A stretch of 60,062 nt of DNA from an uncultured Gammaproteobacteria bacterium. GTDB taxonomy: Bacteria > Pseudomonadota > Gammaproteobacteria > Enterobacterales > Psychrobiaceae. Location: positions 1-60,062 of the forward strand of contig CAJXRU010000013.1 in assembly GCA_913060565.1 (NCBI GenBank), given 5' to 3'. Under the pieces are notes generated by a model. It was not told where the DNA came from, did not search any database, and was given only the letters and a program-made list of their open reading frames with translations. The first letter of the stretch is position 1, and each line of letters opens with the position of its first letter. Of the stretch, positions 2,727 to 15,300 are shown one piece after another. The position numbers and the translations under genes were made by a program.

Positions 2727-4406
2727 TTATTTAATCTTTATTAAATTTCCTAACTTAGATGAAATCTCACTTAAATGTTGCGACTGAAGCACGGTAGTTT
2801 GCGCACCTTCTAAAATAGCGTGACTTTTACCCGTTATTTCATCAATATTTTCACGTAATTGGCCAATGGTTGAAGATTGTTGTGTTGCTGCAGTGGCATT
2901 GTCGGAGTTCAATCCGTTAATGGTCTCAACCTGTCCAGTAACATTATCAAGTAGTGTTGACGCACTTTGGGCATTATCAACCGTTAACATTGCCTGCTCA
3001 CGACTTTCATTCATGACTTCACTCGCTTGTGTTGCGCCAACTTGAAGCCCCTTAACCAAATCATTAATCTCACTCGTTGCCTCCTGAGTACGTTGTGCAA
3101 GGGTTCTTACTTCATCAGCGACCACGGCAAATCCGCGTCCGGCTTCACCAGCGCGCGCGGCTTCAATAGCAGCGTTTAACGCTAACAAATTTGTTTGTTC
3201 AGCAATGCCGTCAATGGTGCTAATGATACCGCCAATACTATCGCTTTGTGCAGACAATTGGCCAACCACTTCATTGGCTTGTGTGATATTTTCTGCTAAT
3301 GCATTTATTTGTTGCAACGTTTGTTGCATGTTGGCACCACTGTCATTAATTCCTTGAGCGACTTCACTCGTAATTGATGCCGTATGATTTGCACGTTGAG
3401 AAACATCTTCACTGACGCTCATTAAATCAGTGACCGCTTGCGAAATGCCGTCCAAGTTAGCTTGCTGGCTGAAAATGTTCGATTCAGCTTCTTTGGCAAT
3501 ACTCGATGTTGTCGCAGAGTGGTGCTCTACATCGGCGGCTTGATTTCGAACGTCATTGAGTAAGTTCTCAAGAGCATCATGAAGCGTTGCAATGCCACCT
3601 GATAACTGATTAATTTCGTACTTTTCACTTTGAGCTTGCCAATTATCTAGCGTTCCTTCTTTTAACGATGACGCTAACGATGTCGTATTACGTGTTAAAC
3701 GGCTAATTGGGCTTGATACATTTTTATAGAGAAAAAAGTAAATAAATCCACTAACCAATAACAACACGATAAAAGTCGCTAAGCTTAATTTTATCGCTAA
3801 TGCGTTAGACGCAGCCATTTTTGCTGCAATAGGTGTTACAACGGACAAACCACCAAGCACCTTTGCGTCTGACACAGGGATGCTATGACAATTCGCACAA
3901 CCAGGGTGCATATTACTCATAAGTGGAACTGCGATTTTATAAAAATCACTGTCTTGGGTGATAATAGGGTTGAGATCGCCACGAGAGAAATTATCGATGG
4001 CGTCTCGTTCAAAGGATGTTTTTGTCGCCGTGATATCTTTGCCAAAAGAGGTTAAGTTTAATTTTGACTCATCCGTGAACAAACGAATTTGAGCGACATC
4101 ATCACCGAATTTATGAGTAACAGCTAAATCAACCGCCTCAATTGTTTTAATCCAATCTTGGTGTATTTCTGCCTTTTTTATGGGATCAGTTTCTGTCGTA
4201 AACTCTTGATTAAACCTGACAGTAGACACCATAAACATCTGGGCAGTTCGTTGAATATTTTCATTGCTTAATTGTTCGACGCGAGCGATGGTATCGCTGC
4301 GAAAAGTGGTCACTAAGATAAAGGCAAGCCCTACACAAGCGACAACGGCGACGGCCGCAAGACGAGTTAAGATATTAAAATTTAACGTTGACGATTTCGG
4401 TGTCAT
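2727..4406 (-). CDS. Methyl-accepting chemotaxis protein with a periplasmic c-type haem motif
   Basis: The 559-residue inner-membrane chemoreceptor has TM1 at about 13-34, a periplasmic sensor at about 35-205, TM2 at about 206-227 and a cytoplasmic signalling region to the end. The conserved hairpin tip is at about 400-440 ([20 protein letters not shown]). The sensor carries CANCH (residues 170-174) in [11 protein letters not shown], a CxxCH haem c attachment motif typical of the Tll0287-like/DUF3365 sensor family. It therefore probably senses redox state or a haem ligand such as oxygen or nitric oxide and signals to CheA/CheW (inference). A perfect FNR-type box precedes it. It sits between tRNA-Leu and rimP, where tRNA-fMet is common in relatives. 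Ribosome binding site AAGGA is 8 bases before ATG. Confidence 0.9.
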
Positions 4407-4441: not shown

Positions 4442-4455
4442 TTGATATAGATCAA
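4442..4455. promoter_or_regulatory. FNR/Anr/EtrA-type box upstream of the haem MCP
   Basis: TTGAT-ATAG-ATCAA is a perfect TTGAT-N4-ATCAA palindrome 36-49 bases before the MCP start. The only -10-like sequence I see (TAAATA, about 4433-4438) is just downstream, so the box would overlap the -35/spacer region. That placement favours repression over class II activation (inference). Confidence 0.6.
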
Positions 4456-13824: not shown

Positions 13825-13854
13825 TCAATACAGTGGCAGATAGGCACAAAAATA

Positions 13855-13879
13855 AAGCCAGTGCTAATTGCACTGGCTT
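13855..13879 (-). terminator. Terminator after the small membrane-protein gene
   Basis: AAGCCAGTGC-TAATT-GCACTGGCTT, perfect 10-bp stem, followed on the minus strand by TATTTTT. It lies 7 bases after the stop of the 46-residue gene. Confidence 0.85.
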
Positions 13880-13886
13880 ATATTGC

Positions 13887-14027
13887 TTATTTTGATTCAG
13901 GGTCTGCATTGACAATATTACTGATAAAGTAATAAGCCATATAAGCTGCAATACCAAATAATATAACTAAACCGATAATTGATCCCACGGCAGCATCATT
14001 ATTCATAATAAATTCGAACCAATCCAT
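13887..14027 (-). CDS. Small single-span membrane protein (DUF3149-like)
   Basis: A 46-codon gene starting MDWFEFIMNNDAAVG and ending ADPESK. It has one hydrophobic segment (about 15-37, SIIGLVILFGIAAYMAYYF) and a short polar tail. The start has a good ribosome binding site (CAGGAG, 8 bases before ATG), and a strong terminator follows, so it is a complete one-gene unit. An FNR-type box and a -10 at class II spacing lie upstream. It resembles the short DUF3149 family of gammaproteobacteria, which has no known function. Family assignment is from memory of composition and length only. It lies between megL and phhA. Confidence 0.8.
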   Translation of the reverse strand: MDWFEFIMNNDAAVGSIIGLVILFGIAAYMAYYFISNIVNADPESK

Positions 14028-14059
14028 AATCACTCTCCTGAAGTTTTATAATTGGTTAT

Positions 14060-14100
14060 ATTTTATTGAATTACACACAACAAAAGCTGATTAAGATCAA
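14060..14100 (-). promoter_or_regulatory. FNR-type class II promoter of the small membrane-protein gene
   Basis: Minus strand TTGAT-CTTA-ATCAG (14087-14100) differs from the FNR consensus TTGAT-N4-ATCAA at one base. After 21 bases comes TAAAAT (14060-14065), a good -10. An FNR site centred at -41.5 requires about 22 bases here. The predicted start is near 14052, giving a 5' UTR of about 25 bases containing the ribosome binding site. Confidence 0.6.
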
Positions 14101-14112
14101 TATTAGTATTTG

Positions 14113-15300
14113 CTAATTTCTTGTTTGAATCATTGCATGATCTAGATCATTTATTAGATCTTCTACTTGCTCGAGTCCAATAGAAATACGTAATAAATTA
14201 TCTGAAATACCCGCTTCAACTCTTGCTTCAGGAGAATATGATGAGTGTGTCATCGACGCAGGGTGCTGAATTAATGATTCTGCATCTCCCAAACTCACCG
14301 CGATTTTAAACAAAGAAAGTGAATCAGCAAACGCTTTTGCGTGCTCTAAATTGCCGTCTAATTCAAATGCAATCACGCCCCCAGCACCCTTCATTTGCTT
14401 GCCAAGAAAACGATGTCCAGCATGCGAGGCTAAGCCTGGGTAATAAACCTTTTTAACGCCGGATTGCGATTCAAGCCATTGGGCGACTTGCTCAGCGTTT
14501 TCACAATGACGCTCCATTCTCACCGCAAGGGTCTTTAAACCTCGTATGATCAGCCACGCATCAAATGGCGACATGGTGCCGCCAATATCTTTAAGCGTTG
14601 TATGTTTAATTTGCGCAATGTGTTCATTGCTTCCACAAATCACACCGGCGACAACATCGCCATGACCATTGAGATACTTAGTGGCACTGTGTAAAACAAT
14701 ATCAATGTCGAAATCTTTTGGGCGTTGTAAATAAGGCGTTAAAAATGTGTTGTCCACAACCGACACAATGTCATGTTGCTTAGCAAAGCGACCAACGAAC
14801 TCAAGATCATACACCGCTAAATTGGGATTAACGGGCGTTTCCAAGAAAACAACTTTCGTATTGTTTCTACGAGCTGCTTCTATTGCATCATGGTCAGCCA
14901 TGTCAACAAAAGTCACCTCAATACCATAACGTGGAAATTGTTCGTTCAGCAATGCAAACGTACACCCATAAACAGCATTAGATGCAATAAGGTGATCGCC
15001 ACAAGAAAGCATGGCTAATAAGACACCAGAAACTGCAGCCATTCCCGTTGAAGTTGCAGCGGCGGCTTCCATATTTTCCAGCACCGCCATCCGCTCTTCA
15101 AGTTGTGTCACCGTTGGGTTAGCCAATCGCGTGTATATGTACCCATCCTCTTCGCCGGCAAAACGGCGTCCACCTTGATCACAGTTGTCAAAGGCAAAGG
15201 TCGATGTTTGGTAAAGTGGCGTTGATAGTGCGCCATGCTCAGTATCAGGATTATCTCCGGCATGCACCAATTGGGTATTGAAATGTAACGATTTTTTCAT
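14113..15300 (-). CDS. megL: Methionine gamma-lyase (PLP enzyme)
   Basis: This cytoplasmic PLP enzyme of the Cys/Met metabolism family splits methionine into methanethiol, ammonia and 2-oxobutyrate. It has 395 residues from ATG at 15300. Further upstream in-frame codons encode a non-conserved extension. Key features: NAVYGCTFAL with the Cys diagnostic of methionine gamma-lyase, VDNTFLTPYLQRP, and SATKYLNGHGDVVAG with the PLP lysine. The C-terminal half (SLGDAESLIQHPASMTHSSY) closely matches the Pseudomonas enzyme. A cystathionine gamma-lyase or synthase role is less likely because of the Cys. The upstream region has three inverted repeats. Confidence 0.88.
   Translation of the reverse strand: MKKSLHFNTQLVHAGDNPDTEHGALSTPLYQTSTFAFDNCDQGGRRFAGEEDGYIYTRLANPTVTQLEERMAVLENMEAAAATSTGMAAVSGVLLAMLSCGDHLIASNAVYGCTFALLNEQFPRYGIEVTFVDMADHDAIEAARRNNTKVVFLETPVNPNLAVYDLEFVGRFAKQHDIVSVVDNTFLTPYLQRPKDFDIDIVLHSATKYLNGHGDVVAGVICGSNEHIAQIKHTTLKDIGGTMSPFDAWLIIRGLKTLAVRMERHCENAEQVAQWLESQSGVKKVYYPGLASHAGHRFLGKQMKGAGGVIAFELDGNLEHAKAFADSLSLFKIAVSLGDAESLIQHPASMTHSSYSPEARVEAGISDNLLRISIGLEQVEDLINDLDHAMIQTRN

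Follow-up and report, generated by a model that had tools for sequence, protein, structure and literature searches.

The window analysed here, a stretch of 60,062 nucleotides from an uncultured gammaproteobacterium, carries on its minus strand an open reading frame of 46 codons (13887..14027) that starts with an ATG at 14027 and ends with a TAA stop at 13889–13887. The encoded protein, MDWFEFIMNNDAAVGSIIGLVILFGIAAYMAYYFISNIVNADPESK, has one hydrophobic span, the most hydrophobic 21-residue stretch covering residues 12–32 with a mean Kyte–Doolittle value of 2.05. A Shine–Dalgarno sequence, AGGAG (14035..14039, minus strand), was recognised by reading and by Shine–Dalgarno scoring. Downstream of the stop codon lies an intrinsic terminator (13845..13879, minus strand) with a 10-bp stem, a 5-nt loop and a T-rich tail, whose hairpin spans 13879–13855; the terminator scan returned a terminator-like signal on both strands at this position. 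A longer, 48-residue form starting at an in-frame upstream GTG was set aside, as this start is unsupported by relatives.

The FNR consensus is TTGAT-N4-ATCAA, and a box with one mismatch to it, TTGATCTTAATCAG, lies ahead of the gene on the same strand (14087..14100). It is followed after 21 nt, the class II spacing, by the –10 hexamer TAAAAT (14060..14065, minus strand). The 5′ neighbour encodes a PLP enzyme of Cys/Met metabolism on the same strand and ends at 14113, 85 nt short of the ATG, so that the box sits in the intergenic gap and is unclaimed by a divergent gene. The 3′ neighbour beyond the terminator is a biopterin-dependent hydroxylase gene. A sequence-only reading of this locus had proposed a single-gene unit with a near-consensus FNR box, a ribosome binding site and a terminator, and this layout holds, with the unit's own box upstream and its own terminator downstream.

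Base differences from sister species indicate that the reading frame is real and under selection, since they fall in excess at codon position 3, which takes 17/19 and 29/33 of them relative to the two nearest species and 21/33 and 18/38 relative to two further ones. The protein narrowly passes the gathering cut-off of the Pfam family DUF3149 (PF11346), with 23.8 bits (E 3.2e-5) against 23.2; in a six-frame genome search the same locus scored 22.5 bits. It matches a wider 56-row profile (A3), built from 56 of the 104 locus proteins described below and including the window protein itself, at E 1e-15, and 55 of these 56 relatives match DUF3149 at E <= 0.1. The reading frame, Shine–Dalgarno sequence, single span and codon-position bias thus bear out the earlier proposal of an unlisted gene for a 46-residue membrane protein, and the Pfam match agrees with its description as DUF3149-like. 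The Pfam entry gives no function. A match of the window protein to MyrrCad fell below the cut-off of that model, and NCBIfam matches found in 13/56 relatives, for example to the SA1362 family, were read as noise from transmembrane composition. Searches of the PDB yielded only chance matches with the window protein, the wide profile and the shortest relative, and no match with a 12-row profile; no cbb3 subunit was found by the DUF3149 profiles.

Within the window alone the box carries little weight: eight one-mismatch boxes were seen against 4.9 ± 2.1 in shuffled sequence, 13 of 100 shuffles reached eight, and we therefore rejected significance on this basis. We turned to 104 DUF3149 loci, comprising 8 genus loci, the best 30 Pfam-profile matches in a sample of 295 genomes of the order, 26 matches over the cut-off in a sample of 232 genomes (197 genera) of the class, and 40 further loci hand-picked from the order-sample matches to spread families; G008 and the order-sample matches beyond those picked lay outside the scan, starts were set by script, apparently wrongly in two cases (L031 and L143). 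A box with at most one mismatch stands 45–150 nt before the start in 83/104 loci, the window's included, where about 1.1 would be expected, and one with at most two mismatches stands there in 96/104; the expected fractions, taken from other sequence of the same loci, are 1.07% and 12%, respectively. The 83 boxed loci spread over 23 of 36 families, so that they do not count as 83 independent observations. Their boxes are concentrated 66–95 nt ahead of the start (75/83). A –10-like hexamer (at least 4/6, with A2 and T6) follows at a gap of 21 in 20 and of 22 in 34 of the 83 boxed loci, compared with 0–10 at any other gap between 8 and 44. This peak across the family matches the class II arrangement. 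The box and class II promoter read from the window are thereby upheld, and both the box and its spacing prove to be conserved upstream of homologues in other genera and families, contrary to the lack of conservation that the earlier reading had named as refuting it.

Homologues within the genus were found in 8/9 genomes by single-sequence search and in 9/9 with the wider profile. Among the eight aligned genus loci the box and –10 hexamer are kept in seven, with a drifting spacer, and G005 has no box. Flanking genes, measured at 31 loci and named by Pfam at six, vary by family: they include TraB/GumN, TruD, an SLT transglycosylase and a methyltransferase, besides a protein with a sub-threshold HAMP match (upstream) and a NUDIX protein (downstream). 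Because the neighbours differ between the sampled families, the box goes with the DUF3149 gene and not with a neighbour.

Some 50 nt ahead of the main box, again on the minus strand, a second palindrome with two mismatches, ATGATCTAGATCAT, falls within the final codons of the 5′ neighbour; it has counterparts in several sister species, which coding constraint may explain. Elsewhere in the window, a perfect FNR-type box, TTGATATAGATCAA (4442–4455), is separated by about 35 bp from the ATG of a downstream gene on the minus strand (2727..4406), whose 559-residue product, chemoreceptor-like as judged by eye, carries a CxxCH haem motif.

Many bacteria use the cbb3 oxidase as their high-affinity oxygen reductase. 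It was the single partner whose presence, scored through ccoN (TIGR00780), was compared with that of DUF3149. In the order sample, DUF3149 (E <= 1e-4 with the 56-row profile) occurs in 132/295 genomes and ccoN (E below 1e-100) in 177/295, and 131 genomes have both (Fisher 1.6e-42, kinship ignored). The sole DUF3149-positive genome without ccoN, G003, is an assembly 88% complete in 600 contigs. The association also appears within families: DUF3149 is present in 10/17 ccoN-positive versus 0/6 ccoN-negative genomes listed for family f8, in 3/3 versus 0/2 for f16 and in 7/10 versus 0/2 for f10, giving a joint exact probability of 2.6e-4, and any unlisted ccoN-negative genomes could only enlarge the cell with neither gene. 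The two ccoN-negative genomes of f10 (G163 and G185) have weak Pfam DUF3149 matches that A3 did not recover. In the class sample, where ccoN was counted over its cut-off, all 37 DUF3149-positive genomes (E <= 1e-4) carry ccoN versus 125/232 overall (hypergeometric 6e-12); two of the 37 (G000 and G014) belong to the order. The count is 39/40 at E <= 1e-3, the exception, G329, having a match inside a 463-residue frame that is probably due to chance, and 26/26 at Pfam's own cut-off.

The reverse does not hold, as 46 of the 177 ccoN-positive order genomes lack DUF3149, including 12/21 in f12, 7/17 in f8 and 7/22 in f21. We took 15 cco regions from such genomes, dropped two that were too short (L296 and L298) and scanned 13, in one of which (L285) no ccoP was found. 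In the other 12 regions we saw no small hydrophobic open reading frame with a Shine–Dalgarno sequence after ccoP that could substitute for DUF3149; the same scan showed CcoQ in 10/12 regions, so it can miss small genes. DUF3149 is therefore not indispensable, given these 46 genomes and the lack of an obvious substitute in the 12 regions.

DUF3149 also lies within the cco gene cluster itself in eight genomes from five families (f144, f134, f112, f156 and f141), and in five of the eight it adjoins ccoP. The order is ccoN-O-Q-P-DUF3149-ccoG in G401 and G411, and ccoN-O-Q-P-DUF3149 followed by a 96-residue frame and ccoG in G511. G423 and G521 have a frame of about 90 residues between ccoP and DUF3149, which directly precedes ccoG, and in G408 DUF3149 follows ccoNOQP-ccoG and two more frames and has its own FNR-type box. 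In G379 and G486 a 38-residue DUF3149-like protein, recognised by profile match only, is encoded between ccoP and ccoG (L283:3970-4086 and L284:4027-4143); a Pfam search with one of the two gave no match, and they may represent a diverged DUF3149 branch. None of the four cluster copies scored (L056, L058, L065 and L067) has a box of its own, as expected inside an operon. The cluster evidence is confined to few lineages, since 99/104 DUF3149 loci show no cco gene within 1.5–2 kb on each side (some flanks being shorter at contig ends). Together, the co-occurrence with ccoN and the cluster location support the earlier suggestion that the protein may be part of a respiratory complex or regulate one, and point to the cbb3 oxidase as that complex.

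A protein of about 80–100 residues is encoded next to DUF3149 in the clusters of G423, G521, G511 and G408 (L105 before 4683 on the minus strand, L106 before 4971, L107:4775-5065 and L108:4277-4525). Its copies share a CYFxxPC-like ending, and its gene could be another unrecognised one linked to cco.

The genome from which the window derives has a ccoN-O-Q-P operon on another contig, followed by a FixH-like gene, ccoI and a gene for a CcoS-like protein of 59 residues. One open reading frame past the latter, close behind the cco cluster, lies an FNR-type gene (L110:10957 onward, G000:C41), which scores 405 bits, over the cut-off, with NF008365, presumably the Fnr model; this location is much as reported for S. 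oneidensis. A perfect FNR box stands about 180 nt before the ccoN ATG. Because FNR-type boxes precede both the DUF3149 gene and ccoN, the 46-residue gene and the oxidase share a type of regulator.

From these observations we consider it probable that the cbb3 cytochrome c oxidase (CcoNOQP) has in DUF3149 a small accessory subunit with one span, resembling CcoM. Falling oxygen would lead an FNR protein of the EtrA/ANR type to bind the box, which would be centred near –41.5, and to activate a short monocistronic DUF3149 transcript ending at the hairpin. Transcription would run in step with that of the ccoN operon through the latter's own perfect box. Within the membrane, the single helix would then pack along the oxidase and so stabilise the assembled complex, as CcoM does in Pseudomonas, a role predicted to be stabilising rather than catalytic. 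In an S. oneidensis etrA mutant on nitrate, ccoPQN was reported to be up, not down (PMC3078092); given this result, FNR may control the cbb3 system in a way other than simple activation.

The comparison with CcoM bears directly on this proposal. CcoM of Pseudomonas (NF041600; PDB 5djq chain N) has 36–43 residues and one hydrophobic span, and is akin to DUF3149 in both respects. We examined 29 ccoM loci (L073 and L235-L262, the weakest of 30, L263, being omitted) from the family of G438, presumably Pseudomonadaceae. A scan of 45–200 nt upstream gave an FNR/ANR-type box with one mismatch or none in 27/29, and 25 of these 27 boxes stand 71–87 nt before the ATG. Like ccoM, most DUF3149 genes thus stand by themselves, encode a single span and are preceded by an ANR/FNR box of their own. 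The two differ in that DUF3149 lies in cco clusters in some lineages, whereas no match to ccoN, O, P, G, H or I was found in the flanks of any of the 29 ccoM loci.

Whether the two families are related by descent is a separate matter. That DUF3149 is a true, diverged orthologue of CcoM is a stronger claim, compatible with the accessory-subunit proposal, to which we give some credence while doubting it. Size, span and promoter layout agree, and profile–profile alignment with hhalign gives a probability of 48.9% and a score of 20.7, above all 150 whole-column shuffles of CcoM (maximum 20.45) and above 148/150 shuffles of its transmembrane core. A query with P. stutzeri CcoM was clear in the class sample only for G438, which is not among the DUF3149 matches; we took the weaker matches of this query (E 0.0177 and above) as chance. 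The hhalign probability itself speaks against orthology, as do the scores that CcoQ, in a five-row alignment, reaches against DUF3149 (18.6) and against CcoM (30.3). The curated model points the same way: all 20 CcoM proteins tried match NF041600 (71.6 bits for an example member, with a cut-off of 40 bits), but the window protein does not, and a single one of the 56 DUF3149 relatives does so, weakly (E 0.018), so that identity with CcoM by this model was rejected. Among 31 genomes of the order that includes G318, a search recovered just two members, both known before, and no bridge to CcoM. We accordingly propose that DUF3149 may work like CcoM and make no claim of homology, which is borderline.

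CcoQ (FixQ, PF05545) is likewise a small single-span protein of the cbb3 oxidase. FixQ matches occur in 2/56 DUF3149 proteins (best E 0.0054), and the window protein has none. The window genome has a separate CcoQ of 60 residues in its cco operon, scoring 41.5 bits to FixQ, and CcoQ is also present in the cco clusters that hold DUF3149. On these grounds we rejected the identification of DUF3149 as CcoQ. CydX, likewise tiny and with a single span, was reported to have turned out to be a subunit of an oxidase (PMC3899249); its oxidase, cytochrome bd, is a different one from cbb3.

A cbb3 assembly or maturation factor in the manner of CcoS or CcoH, bound transiently to CcoN, CcoO or CcoP rather than remaining as a lasting subunit, would account for the same co-occurrence and cluster evidence. 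In the clusters DUF3149 comes after ccoP and ahead of ccoG, which is an assembly gene, or else behind ccoG; such positions would suit an assembly factor, and so would the absence of DUF3149 from 46 ccoN-positive genomes. We nevertheless regard this as unlikely, as the window genome already encodes a CcoS-like protein after ccoI, and the separate, FNR-boxed layout is shared with the genes of CcoM, a structural subunit. Least probable is that DUF3149 serves some other FNR-controlled process (a different respiratory complex, for example, or membrane stress) and is tied to cbb3 by shared ecology alone. The many loci without a flanking cco gene and the tendency of low-oxygen bacteria to have both genes would fit this reading, the cbb3 oxidase being the sole complex compared, whereas the eight cluster genomes in five families, the 37/37 class-sample genomes with ccoN and the joint absences within f8, f16 and f10 argue against it.

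Returning to the accessory-subunit proposal, a broader form of it would place DUF3149 in the site of CcoM as an unrecognised cbb3 subunit in a large part of the Gammaproteobacteria, Shewanella among them. Its own FNR promoter would allow the level of the subunit, and with it oxidase stability, to be tuned apart from ccoNOQP. We put this extension forward tentatively, at slightly less than an even chance. In the portion of a published study available to us, CcoO and CcoP were identified in active gel bands by tryptic digestion, and no small unknown protein is mentioned there. A literature search did not find the name DUF3149, and the sources on CcoM, cbb3 subunits, small proteins of ccoNOQP/ccoG and the EtrA regulon contained, in the parts available to us, no link between DUF3149 and the oxidase. 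DUF3149 is thus a candidate new family among the known small accessory oxidase subunits. If this assignment is true, a domain of unknown function that is present in 132 of the 295 sampled genomes of the order gains a function, and the CcoNOQP description of the enzymes in these groups leaves one part unnamed. How small oxidase subunits are gained, lost and replaced would then become testable.
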